From Natronomonas marina (GTDB lineage Archaea; Halobacteriota; Halobacteria; Halobacteriales; Haloarculaceae): a stretch of 64,000 bases of DNA. Below are positions 10,412 through 14,313 of this stretch, piece by piece. The DNA lies in NCBI RefSeq assembly GCF_024298905.1, contig NZ_CP101154.1, forward strand, positions 744,001-808,000, written 5' to 3'. Position 1 is the stretch's first letter; the number at the start of each line of letters is the position of its first letter. Made by a program: the position numbers and the translations under genes. The notes under the pieces are model-generated. The model worked only from the letters and a program-made list of their open reading frames with translations, did no database searches and was not told the DNA's origin.

Positions 10412-11449
10412 GTGAAGCGAGCATACGTCGCCGTCGCGGCCACCGTCGGGATTTTCGCGTTCGTCCAGGTGGGCGCGCTCGCCCTCGTCGAGCCGTTCAT
10501 GGAGGCCGGCTACCAGACCGTCGAGGACCCGACGGACCCGACCAACAGCCTGCTGTACGTCGGCGCCATCCTCGTGGCCACGGTCGTGATGCTGGCCGCC
10601 ATCCGCCTCGGCGTCGACCGCCTCATCCAGAGTCTTATCGTCTTCGCCGCCGTCTTCCTCGCCTTCTACGTCTTCTCGGTGGTGGTCCCGCCGCTTGTCA
10701 CCTACGGCGGGGCGAACGTCCTCGCGGTCGCCGCCGCCGTCGCGCTGGGGGCGGGGCTGCTCCTCTACCCCGAGTGGTACGTCATCGACGCCGCCGGCAT
10801 CGTGATGGGCGCAGGCGCGGCGGGGCTGTTCGGCATCAGTTTCGGGCTCGCGCCCGCCCTGCTCCTGCTCGTCGTGCTGGCCGTCTACGACGCCATCTCG
10901 GTGTACGGCACCGAACACATGCTCACACTGGCCTCGGGCGTGATGGACCTCCGGCTCCCGGTCGTCTTCGTTGTCCCGCTCACGCTCTCGTACTCCTTCC
11001 TCGACGACGAAGGGCCGGCGACGCTCGAGGACGACGGGGAGACGGACGACGACGGCGGGAGCGGCGGACGAGACGACGCGGGCGACGACGCTGCGGACGC
11101 CGCGAACGGCGACCCCGCCGAGACCGAGGATCCCTTCGCCCGGGACGCCTTCTTCATCGGCCTCGGGGACGCCGTCATCCCGACGATACTGGTCGCGTCG
11201 GCGGCCTTCTTCCGGCCGGGCGGGGCCGCACTCCTGGACGTGCCGGGGGTCGCACTGACGCTGCCGGCCCTCGGCGCGATGGCCGGGACGCTCCTCGGTC
11301 TGCTCGCGCTCATGTGGATGGTGATGAAGGGCCGCGCCCACGCCGGCCTGCCGCTGTTGAACGGCGGCGCCATCGCCGGGTACCTGCTGGGGACCGTCGT
11401 CGCCGGCGTGTCGCTGGTCGAGGCGGTCGGTATCGCGCCGTACCTCTGA
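10412..11449 (+). CDS. Presenilin-family intramembrane aspartyl protease (PSH)
   Basis: A 345-residue polytopic membrane protein with about nine helices. It has the two catalytic aspartates in the right context: YD at 159-160 (LAVYDAISVYG) and GLGD at 250-253 (GLGDAVIP). The PAL-like element is GLPLLNGG near 312. A strongly acidic loop of about 40 residues (about 200-240) splits the two catalytic helices, where presenilins are cut or variable. Members cleave substrates inside the bilayer. The start is GTG 10412, 39 bases after Gar1. Substrates in haloarchaea are not known to me. Confidence 0.85.
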   Translation: MKRAYVAVAATVGIFAFVQVGALALVEPFMEAGYQTVEDPTDPTNSLLYVGAILVATVVMLAAIRLGVDRLIQSLIVFAAVFLAFYVFSVVVPPLVTYGGANVLAVAAAVALGAGLLLYPEWYVIDAAGIVMGAGAAGLFGISFGLAPALLLLVVLAVYDAISVYGTEHMLTLASGVMDLRLPVVFVVPLTLSYSFLDDEGPATLEDDGETDDDGGSGGRDDAGDDAADAANGDPAETEDPFARDAFFIGLGDAVIPTILVASAAFFRPGGAALLDVPGVALTLPALGAMAGTLLGLLALMWMVMKGRAHAGLPLLNGGAIAGYLLGTVVAGVSLVEAVGIAPYL

Positions 11450-11453
11450 GTCG

Positions 11454-12452
11454 TCACTCGCCGGTCAGCGCCTCGCTGCCCGGCAGGAACTCGATGGTCC
11501 GGCCGAGACCGCGCTCTTCGGCCCGCTCGTAGAGGCTCCAGGCCGCCGCGACGGTCTCGATGCCGGTTCCCCCGCTGTCGAAGACTGTCACCTCGGGGTC
11601 GTCGGTCCGCCCGGGGCGGTGGCCCGCGACCACCTCGCCCAGTTCGGCGTGAACGTGGCCGTCGTCGACGAGGCCGGTCTCGCGGGCGGCAAGGAAGGCG
11701 CCGGCGTCCTGGAAGGCCCGGGCGCGCAGGTCCGGGACGTAGGTGCTCCGGGCCACCGTCGCCGGCGGTATCTCCCGCTTGTCGCGGTCGTACTGGCCCA
11801 TCGCGGTGACGTGGGCGCCGTCGGGGAGGTCGGCGTCCTCGAAGACGGGGCGCTCGGCCCGGGTCGCGGTGACGACCACGTCGGCGCCGTCGAGGGCGTC
11901 GGCCGCCGAGTCGACCGCCGTCACGTCGGCGTCGAGGCGGGCGTCGAACTCCTCGGCGAACGCCCGACGGTTCTCCGCCGTCGGCGAGAAGACCCGGACG
12001 CGCTCGAACTCCCGGACCGTCGCCGTCGCCCGCAACTGCCCGCGGGCCTGCGCGCCCGACCCGACGACGGCACAGGTCGTCGCGTCCGCCCGGGCGAGTG
12101 CGTCGACGGCGACGGCGCCGGTCGCGCCGGTCTTGAACGGGTTCATCGACGCGCCGTCGAGTAGCGCGACGAGGCGACCGGACTCGGCGTCGAAAAGCGG
12201 CAGCACGAAGTGGACGTCCTCGTCGCCGAAGCCGGCGGCGTAGGTGTACCCGCCCATGGCGCCGACCTCCGGGAGGACCGCCAGGTAGCCGGTGCACATC
12301 CCCGGCGGGTCCTCGGCGGCGAGTTTCGTCCGCGGTTCGGCCGACCCCTCGTTGCCGTGGCTCTCGTAGCCGGCGCGGACGGCCTCGACGTAGTCGCTCG
12401 GCGTCGCCAGGTCGGCGAGTTCGTCGCTTCGCAGGAACAGAACGTCGGTCAT
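11454..12452 (-). CDS. Ornithine cyclodeaminase / mu-crystallin family enzyme
   Basis: A 332-residue NAD(P)-dependent enzyme of the OCD/mu-crystallin family, which includes ornithine cyclodeaminase, alanine dehydrogenase and imine reductases. Marks are MGGYTYAAGF, LLDGASMNPFKTGATGAVA (substrate loop), and the Rossmann motif CAVVGSGAQARGQ near residue 130. ATG 12452 is used; a GTG six bases upstream is possible. It converges with the presenilin gene. In archaea the family's alanine dehydrogenase role is known, but the exact reaction here cannot be read from sequence. Confidence 0.82.
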   Translation of the reverse strand: MTDVLFLRSDELADLATPSDYVEAVRAGYESHGNEGSAEPRTKLAAEDPPGMCTGYLAVLPEVGAMGGYTYAAGFGDEDVHFVLPLFDAESGRLVALLDGASMNPFKTGATGAVAVDALARADATTCAVVGSGAQARGQLRATATVREFERVRVFSPTAENRRAFAEEFDARLDADVTAVDSAADALDGADVVVTATRAERPVFEDADLPDGAHVTAMGQYDRDKREIPPATVARSTYVPDLRARAFQDAGAFLAARETGLVDDGHVHAELGEVVAGHRPGRTDDPEVTVFDSGGTGIETVAAAWSLYERAEERGLGRTIEFLPGSEALTGE

Positions 12453-12490
12453 GGACACGGCTTCGGCCGCGGCGCGTTTAGGGACTGTGT

Positions 12491-12730
12491 CTACTCGGTG
12501 GTCGGGTGCGTGGCGGAGGCGGCCTCGGCCGTTCGGCCGGCGTTCCCACCCTGCGGGACGGCCGCGACCGGAGCGTTGACGAACATCGCGTGCCCCATCA
12601 GGCCGACCGCGACGGTCGAGGCCAGCGGCACCGCGACCGACATCTCGAGACCACCGGTGAGAAACAGCGCGGTCAGGCCGGCGAGCGAGAGCGGGATCAG
12701 GCCGAGCACGAGGTCGTAATAACTTGCCAT
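12491..12730 (-). CDS. Small two-helix membrane protein, 79 aa
   Basis: A 79-residue protein starting MASYYDLVLGLIPL with two hydrophobic helices (about 8-28 and 31-52) and a polar tail. It looks like the small DUF-type membrane proteins common in haloarchaea; function is unknown. A repeated sequence motif lies directly over its start, and a TATA element (gatataag on the plus strand, 12758-12765) is about 31 bases upstream, so its transcription may be tightly controlled. Confidence 0.7.
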   Translation of the reverse strand: MASYYDLVLGLIPLSLAGLTALFLTGGLEMSVAVPLASTVAVGLMGHAMFVNAPVAAVPQGGNAGRTAEAASATHPTTE

Positions 12731-12748
12731 AATATACTCATACGTATG
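12729..12748. promoter_or_regulatory. Operator-like motif, copy 1 (overlaps start of the 79-aa gene)
   Basis: The sequence ataatatactcata runs into the perfect palindrome catacgtatg (12739-12748). The same 14-base core recurs, with one change, exactly 100 bases to the right. It covers the start codon and likely transcription start of the leftward membrane-protein gene. Confidence 0.5.
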
Positions 12749-12828
12749 GGGAATACCGATATAAGTGTTTTGGAAGAATTTCGAGTAATCTATTCGGTGG
12801 CGACCTGTTGGCGCCAGGTACGTGCCTT

Positions 12829-12851
12829 ATAATATATTCATAACTTATGAA
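12829..12851. promoter_or_regulatory. Operator-like motif, copy 2, with 15-base palindrome
   Basis: Here ataatatattcata is followed by a perfect dyad ttcataacttatgaa (12837-12851). The core matches copy 1 at 13 of 14 positions, and the spacing between copies is exactly 100 bases. Confidence 0.5.
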
Positions 12852-13032: not shown

Positions 13033-14313
13033 ATGACGGACGGAGGGTCGCGCGTGGACTACGCCGCCCGGGCGCGGGACGTCCTCGGGTTCTCCCGGTG
13101 GTGGCAGATCGCGGCGGCGGTCGGGATGATGGCCGCCGTCAGCCCCTACCAGTACGTCTGGTCGTCCATCGCGCCGCCGCTCTCGGCGAGTCTCGACATC
13201 GCACCCGCCGCGCTCGGGGCGGTCTTTTCCTTCTACGTCGTCTTCCAGTCGCTCTCACAGTTCCCCGCCGGCTGGTGGCGCGACCGCCGGGGACCGCGAC
13301 TGCTGGTCTTCCTCGCGGCGCTTCTGGCCGGCGGCGGCTACGTCGGCCTCGCCTACGCCACGAGCGTCCTCCAGTTGTACGTCCTCTACTCGCTCGGCGC
13401 CGTCGGCGTCGGCATCGTCTACACCGTCGCGGTCAACACCGCCGTCAAGTGGTTCCCCGACCGGACCGGCCTGACGACGGGTCTCGGCACGATGGCCTTC
13501 GCGGCCGGCAGCGTCCTCGCGGTTCCCTACGTCCGCGCGAACGCGACCGTCGGCGGCTACGCGGCCGTCCTCCGGAACGTCGGGCTGGTCATCCTCGGGG
13601 TCCTACTTGTCGGGGCTCTCCTCCTCCGGGACCCGCCGGAGGCGTGGCTGGGGCTGGACGACGATGACGCGACGACCGACGTGGCCGCCTCGCTCCGGGG
13701 AAGCGCCTACACCACCCGCGAGATGCTCCGCACCTGGCAGTTCTGGCTGCTGTACGCGATGTTCGTCGCCACCGCCGGCGCCGACCTCGTCGTCATCGCC
13801 AACGTCGTCACCTTCGCCGACGAACTCGGGTTCACCTACGACGTCGCCACCGTCGCCGCCACGCTTCTGCCGCTCTCGGCCGGCGTCTCTCGGCTCGTCC
13901 TCGGGGAGGTGACCGACCGCGTCGGCCGCAAGCGCGTGATGGTCGTCTCCTTCCTGCTCGCGGGACTGTTCCGACTGGGACTCGTCGCCGCCGGCCGGGC
14001 CGACCGGCCGGTCGCCTTCGTCGCGCTCGTCCTGGCTGCGATGTTCTTCTCCTCGCCGCTGTACGTCTACTTCCCGTCGCTGCTGTCGGACTACTACGGC
14101 TCGGAGTTCTCCTCGAGCAACTACGCCGTCCTCTACACCGCGAAGGTCGGCGGCGGCGTCGTCGCCGGCACCGTCGCGGGCTACCTCGCGGCCGCCTATG
14201 GCTGGGGGCCGACCTTCGCGCTCGGCGGGGTGCTCGCGGCCGCTGCTGGCCTCGCCGCGCTCGTCCTCCGGCCGCCGTCAGACGCGGGTCTCGCCGCCGA
14301 CGTCCCGGACTGA
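13033..14313 (+). CDS. MFS transporter, oxalate/formate antiporter (OFA)-like
   Basis: A 426-residue major facilitator protein with twelve hydrophobic helices. The loop after helix 2 reads FPAGWWRDRRGPR, an MFS motif A, repeated in the second half as GEVTDRVGRKRV. The region YQYVWSSIAPPL and KWFPDRTGLTTGL is typical of the OFA subfamily (organic-acid antiporters). Substrate is unknown; monocarboxylates are the likeliest class. It is transcribed alone from a good TATA element. Confidence 0.83.
   Translation: MTDGGSRVDYAARARDVLGFSRWWQIAAAVGMMAAVSPYQYVWSSIAPPLSASLDIAPAALGAVFSFYVVFQSLSQFPAGWWRDRRGPRLLVFLAALLAGGGYVGLAYATSVLQLYVLYSLGAVGVGIVYTVAVNTAVKWFPDRTGLTTGLGTMAFAAGSVLAVPYVRANATVGGYAAVLRNVGLVILGVLLVGALLLRDPPEAWLGLDDDDATTDVAASLRGSAYTTREMLRTWQFWLLYAMFVATAGADLVVIANVVTFADELGFTYDVATVAATLLPLSAGVSRLVLGEVTDRVGRKRVMVVSFLLAGLFRLGLVAAGRADRPVAFVALVLAAMFFSSPLYVYFPSLLSDYYGSEFSSSNYAVLYTAKVGGGVVAGTVAGYLAAAYGWGPTFALGGVLAAAAGLAALVLRPPSDAGLAADVPD

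Follow-up and report, generated by a model that had tools for sequence, protein, structure and literature searches.

Operators of the archaeal Lrp family (Ss-LrpB, Ptr2) combine a palindromic anchor with further sites on one face of the DNA that reach the promoter, and Lrp/AsnC-type palindromic sites measure about 13–15 bp. For two targets activated by Ss-LrpB, the core site lies more than 100 bp upstream and occupancy extends downstream at higher concentration (PMC2995911). Archaeal ribbon-helix-helix regulators likewise bind a high-affinity distal site and oligomerise towards the core promoter (PMC7408454), and the motif of the haloarchaeal regulator CdrS was found 41–110 nt upstream of the transcription start at 15 of 18 sites (PMC8406309). 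A haloarchaeal palindromic motif adjoining BRE/TATA is also known for CsmR of Haloferax volcanii, with the consensus TATCA(N4)TGATA in 50 of 65 peaks (PMC13286277). In the bacterial repression loops of lac and ara, two operators are separated by whole helical turns, and refits of lac data gave in vivo helical repeats of 11.08 and 11.60 bp (PMC1762422). The promoter compared here with these systems is that of p79, a gene for a small membrane protein of Natronomonas marina.

The p79 gene and the palindromes before it

The window, i.e., the whole stretch of 64,000 nucleotides that was analysed, has a haloarchaeal-type base composition (64–73% G+C per 2-kb step), and the p79 protein encoded in it is hydrophobic by eye. 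No Pfam or NCBIfam match for p79 was obtained at E≤0.001. At the same threshold, a single-sequence search gave matches in 103 of 146 genomes of the window's family, and a profile of 25 rows gave matches in 356 of the 391 genomes sampled across the class and in 83 of 86 genera. Matches were also present in 111 of 119 genomes of a second family and 21 of 26 genomes of a third. Part of the matches in these searches were weak and of paralogue grade. Residues M1, Y4, Y5, D6, L9, I12, P13, G27, H47, F50 and P54 were invariant across the 25 rows. A diverged p79 paralogue occurs in the same genome (C1:333346-333507); inspection of its 150 upstream bases revealed no palindrome.

On the same strand as p79 and separated from it by a gap of 38 bp is an ornithine cyclodeaminase-like gene, probably its operon partner, which was found downstream of p79 in 70 of 77 loci (only partially in one). 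Many haloarchaeal loci share the order seen at 10412-12730 of the window, in which p79 and this gene are followed by a converging gene for a presenilin-family protease. The divergent upstream neighbour in the window is an MFS gene starting at 13033. This upstream position is variable, being occupied by MFS genes in 12 of 14 loci of the window's genus and by DUF3054 genes in the remaining two as well as in many loci elsewhere.

Table 1. Features of the p79 locus (positions in the window)
Feature	Position	Strand	Remarks
Ornithine cyclodeaminase/mu-crystallin family gene	11454..12452	-	PF02423; downstream of p79
p79	12491..12730	-	ORF; 79 aa, two putative membrane segments (by eye)
First 14-base core copy, ATAATATACTCATA	12729..12742	+	Species-specific extension of proximal element
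Proximal palindrome, CATACGTATG	12739..12748	.	Between TATA box and start codon; CATASTAT position
BRE-like AAAACAC and TATA box TTATAT	12758..12771	-	First T of TATA box at 12764
Second 14-base core copy, ATAATATATTCATA	12829..12842	+	Species-specific extension of distal palindrome
Distal palindrome, TTCATAACTTATGAA	12837..12851	.	Core CATAASTTATG at 12839-12849; candidate high-affinity regulator site

The sequence-only reading of this DNA had drawn attention to a 14-base core that is present twice, exactly 100 bases apart, with a palindrome joined to each copy. These observations were borne out: the offset is 100 bases, the two copies are the sole matches in the window at up to two mismatches (0.01 expected from shuffled windows), and both palindromes are perfect, share half-sites and have centres 100.5 bases apart. 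The first copy, said to cover the p79 start codon, overlaps two of its three bases (ATG, minus strand, 12730-12728). Across the whole genome (3.99 Mb), eight matches were obtained at up to two mismatches, two of them exact and six with two mismatches, compared with seven for the reversed core; the 14-mer was rejected as a regulon motif for want of a third copy at up to one mismatch. Counts of the shorter core ATAASTTAT, found at three genomic places versus five for its reversed control, were not above that control and are uninformative, and its two further places (L087, L088) were inspected only at a glance.

A different result was obtained for the palindrome. In the first set of orthologue promoters, CATAASTTATG was present at up to two mismatches in 72 of 73, in forms that appeared by eye as CATAAGTTATG or CATAACTTATG, whereas the 14-base core beside the distal palindrome was exact in the window alone and within two mismatches in 3 of 72 other promoters. 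Among 164 promoters (one per genome; 61 genus labels), 162 carried the palindrome at up to two mismatches, with no mismatch in 76, one in 55, two in 31 and three in 2. All 30 promoters obtained subsequently from 32 genomes, two of which gave short matches and no locus, carried it at this level too. Five loci without a profile hit were dropped, as were 12 others (two were duplicates, one came from a cut contig, one had no usable start, one repeated the window and seven were weak paralogues) and those with identical upstream sequence or from already represented genomes. Judged from this comparison of promoters, the palindromes are the conserved unit and the 14-base core is a local, species-specific embellishment of them; the assignment of the site to the small membrane gene is upheld, and so is its conservation before orthologues. 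In one genus (L018, L026, L034 and others), a conserved stretch with TTGTGAA and CACAAG was noted by eye about 180 bp before p79, upstream of the palindrome.

The core promoter of p79 has the haloarchaeal leaderless layout, with BRE and TATA box about 30 bp before the ATG. The distance from TATA box to ATG is 34 in the window, from which the transcript is probably leaderless, and 33–36 bp in 68 of 72 promoters. In Haloferax volcanii, 72% of protein-coding transcripts were described as leaderless (PMC4983044). Conservation anchored on the TATA box peaked at TAT (-23), TAT (-12), BRE/TATA, CATA-S-TAT (+16 to +23) and the start region. These elements were compared with 37 control promoters picked from four genomes solely by their BRE/TATA/ATG pattern, which replaced an earlier control set from the locus data that was too small (n=6). 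Thus, CATASTATG at up to two mismatches was located at +16 in 66 of 144 p79 promoters versus none of the 37 controls, and anywhere from +9 to +26 in 75 of 144 versus 8 of 37. TAT or TAC occurred at -23 in 65% of p79 promoters and 3% of controls, and at -12 in 51% and 3%, respectively. The upstream palindrome was within two mismatches in 1 of 37 controls versus 144 of 144 p79 promoters, the latter by selection.

Spacing between the palindrome and the TATA box

Spacing is given here as the distance between the centre of the palindrome and the first T of the TATA box. For the 144 promoters in which the elements were clear, the values were 36, 47, 56–58, 67–69, 78–82 and 92–93 bp with nothing between, and the later set added 102, so that the teeth of the resulting comb stand overall at 36, 47, 58, 69, 80–81, 92 and 102 bp. 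In the window, the centre of the distal palindrome (12844) lies 80 bp upstream of the TATA box. The pooled set of 167 promoters from 74 genera gave a period of 11.26 bp (bootstrap 11.12–11.44), and a fit of the same set to tooth number gave 11.23 bp (residual spread, 0.65 bp). Promoters with a weak palindrome or TATA match (20 of 164) and 7 of the 30 later ones were left out of these counts; several of those omitted fit by eye and remain uncounted.

Distance windows were fixed before the later promoters were fetched, and 19 of the 23 testable promoters fell inside them. Of the four outside, two from one genus were at 102 bp, i.e., the next tooth, and two from another genus were at 71 bp, 2 bp off. 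Thirteen of the 19 fitting promoters belong to a family already known at 57–58 bp, one of them to a previously included genus, and in six of the genomes the location of an exact copy of the palindrome was known beforehand. The informative new cases are therefore five genera, with distances of 69, 80 and 91 bp inside the windows, 102 bp at the next tooth and 71 bp as a miss. Five genera were also found to switch tooth internally, by about 11–13 or 23 bp. Random spacings equalled the observed phasing in 1 of 5000 trials with 8 independent cases and in 0 of 5000 with 10, relatedness being a concern for these statistics. A short tree built from 174 nt of p79 coding DNA is weak, and the 19 spacing changes counted on it are an upper guess. 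A figure based on uniform placement is to be disregarded, its windows having been chosen after the data were seen. Together, these comparisons of aligned promoters support a helical-face constraint on the spacing of palindrome and TATA box.

Similar phasing was noted between the two palindromes. The proximal element shares its half-sites with the distal palindrome, is matched better than in shuffled sequence (a mean of 2.04 mismatches versus 3.67), and was found at up to two mismatches between TATA box and ATG in 91 of 144 promoters. In these 91 usable promoters, the distances between centres, with the phase fixed at zero, were best fitted by 11.14 bp per turn; 79 were within 1 bp of 56, 67, 78, 89, 100–101 or 112 bp and 12 were not. 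The pair in the window, 100.5 bp apart, corresponds to nine turns of about 11.14 bp. The earlier equation of 100 bases with close to ten turns is thus not supported: the data fit a turn of about 11.2 bp, and at 10.5 bp per turn the two palindromes would be out of phase (mean cosine -0.69). A turn of about 11.2 instead of 10.5 bp matches loops in negatively supercoiled E. coli DNA (PMC1762422). The suggestion of cooperation on the same DNA face survives in changed form, as a helical-face constraint on spacing in which 100 bases is one of at least seven spacings.

Readings of the p79 promoter

We consider it probable, from the conservation and phasing of its elements, that region 12728-12851 is the p79 promoter with a two-ended operator, on which a putative dimeric regulator anchored distally would act from one DNA face. 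The helical register implies that whatever occupies the palindrome has to lie on the side of the helix that also carries the TATA complex or the proximal palindrome. According to the proposed mechanism, a putative dimeric DNA-binding protein would occupy the distal CATAASTTATG with high affinity and reach the promoter on the same helix face through a short DNA loop or, alternatively, by filling weaker phased half-sites (TAT at -23 and -12) down to CATASTAT, where the protein would close the start region, with an effect that may be mainly repression. We infer that protein is present at both ends, that it is one single protein and that repression prevails, the sign of the effect being a guess. 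Mainly repression is favoured on two grounds: a protein at the proximal site would obstruct initiation, and BRE/TATA is near consensus. Against the two-ended operator stand the degenerate proximal palindrome, likely targets with spacings off the comb, the two promoters at 71 bp and the strongest A/T period from -60 to -8, which is 5.5 instead of 11 bp.

A close rival of this favoured repressor reading, although itself rather doubtful, is that the distal protein is an upstream activator that recruits TBP/TFB or RNA polymerase from the same face, the proximal element being an unusually conserved initiation region. Activation would suit the distal position of the palindrome, the strictness with which it keeps phase with the TATA box and the presence of phased TAT blocks immediately before BRE, and archaeal activators need placement on the same face about two turns from the TATA box (PMC7408454). 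Control promoters, too, show A/T at +18/+19 (68–70%). However, CATASTATG at +16 exceeds the controls, and archaeal activators are described as usually serving weak core promoters (PMC7408454), whereas BRE/TATA of p79 is near consensus.

Wrapping of the entire stretch by an octamer-forming protein, Lrp-like or of the nucleoid type, with the palindrome as its strongest contact, is unlikely. It would agree with A/T content from -49 to -8, which has power in the 10–12.5 bp band (permutation P 0.0026), with the condensation of about 100 bp by Ss-LrpB and with the alignment of Lrp sites to one face (PMC2995911). A wrap of fixed size, however, would not easily tolerate lengths from palindrome to TATA box of 36 to 102 bp. 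Further, the intermediate blocks are weak (-34 in 13% and -45 in 30% of promoters), and over -60 to -8 the strongest period of A/T content is 5.5 bp, not 11, for which reason a continuous 11-bp ladder is not established.

That the site serves the MFS gene of this divergent intergenic region instead of p79 is very improbable, since the upstream neighbour changes among loci while the distance to the p79 TATA box stays on the comb. A functionless chance repeat in AT-rich intergenic DNA, compatible with confinement of the 14-base identity to one species, is hardly credible: on the class-wide conservation of palindrome and phase, chance is refuted for the palindrome and still holds for the additional bases in the 14-mer.

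Other sites and comparison with known regulators

By hand count, the exact 13-mer YCATAASTTATGR was present in 111 of 242 genomes versus 25 for the reversed control. Among the matches listed, which are not totals, 75 exact sites were assigned by hand, those of p79 by comparing coordinates with the searches: 47 lie at p79, 9 at a diverged p79 paralogue, 14 at DUF555 genes, 3 at DUF7512 genes and 2 elsewhere. Thus, 73 of the 75 listed sites adjoin four recurring gene sets, mostly of small membrane proteins, and no regulator gene was seen in the recurring sets among the sites listed. The DUF555 loci (L242-L248, L250, L253, L254, L258, L259, L261 and L222) represent 14 genomes of three families, and a divergent gene for a 58-aa membrane-like protein was found by eye or tblastn in 13 of them; at L259, tblastn for this gene gave no match. 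The single exact sites at L255 and L260 precede lipoprotein-like and amidohydrolase-like genes, respectively (names by eye). An attempt to extend the p79 comb to other targets failed. In p79 paralogues of one genus, the TATA box lies at about 60–62 and the proximal element at 82; for DUF7512 genes, the TATA box lies at 50 or 71. These spacings are off the comb and count against a fully general rule.

More tentatively, and somewhat less likely than not, nearly all haloarchaea may share one putative regulator that would act from a distal palindrome on a tiny regulon of small membrane proteins. Its assembly would be so sensitive to helical face that the p79 promoter could vary in length by whole turns alone, and the comb would then reflect the in vivo helical repeat of haloarchaeal DNA (about 11.26 bp). 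With the present results, a very widespread haloarchaeal gene without a described family gains a defined promoter and its putative regulator a 15-bp bait. The spacing comb amounts to an experiment of nature on helical phase in archaeal transcription, from which the twist of DNA in living haloarchaeal cells can be estimated. Among the matches listed in literature searches on the palindrome strings, DUF7512/DUF555, haloarchaeal motifs, small proteins and helical spacing, no description of this site was found.

CdrS is an unlikely regulator of p79, judged from the promoters of its published target dacZ. In 28 dacZ loci of one haloarchaeal family, the palindrome was found at up to one mismatch in none and at up to two mismatches in four, somewhere in the locus, with one of these upstream of dacZ (L274, about 70 bp before). 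Many dacZ promoters of one family (L264-L291) carry, by eye, sequences resembling GCGTCTGACG or GCATGACGG about 45 nt upstream of the start, which may be the CdrS site. CsmR is also unlikely, its published consensus being different from CATAASTTATG.

Compared with the Lrp family, CATAASTTATG with its flanks has the size of an Lrp/AsnC-type palindromic site, and the distal site is in register with the TATA box, while the intermediate and proximal sites are degenerate. Neighbouring Lrp-family sites are two or three turns apart, whereas p79 promoters have one anchor that occupies at least seven turn-spaced positions across the class. As in two-operator loops, the palindromes lie at integral turns (11.14 bp, phase zero). 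Spacing was sampled by engineering for lac and ara; for p79, where a loop is putative, it was sampled by evolution. Helix-phased operators are already known; an evolutionary comb that spans a whole class, with seven or more teeth and attached to a putative small-protein regulon, was not found among the papers listed in the literature searches.
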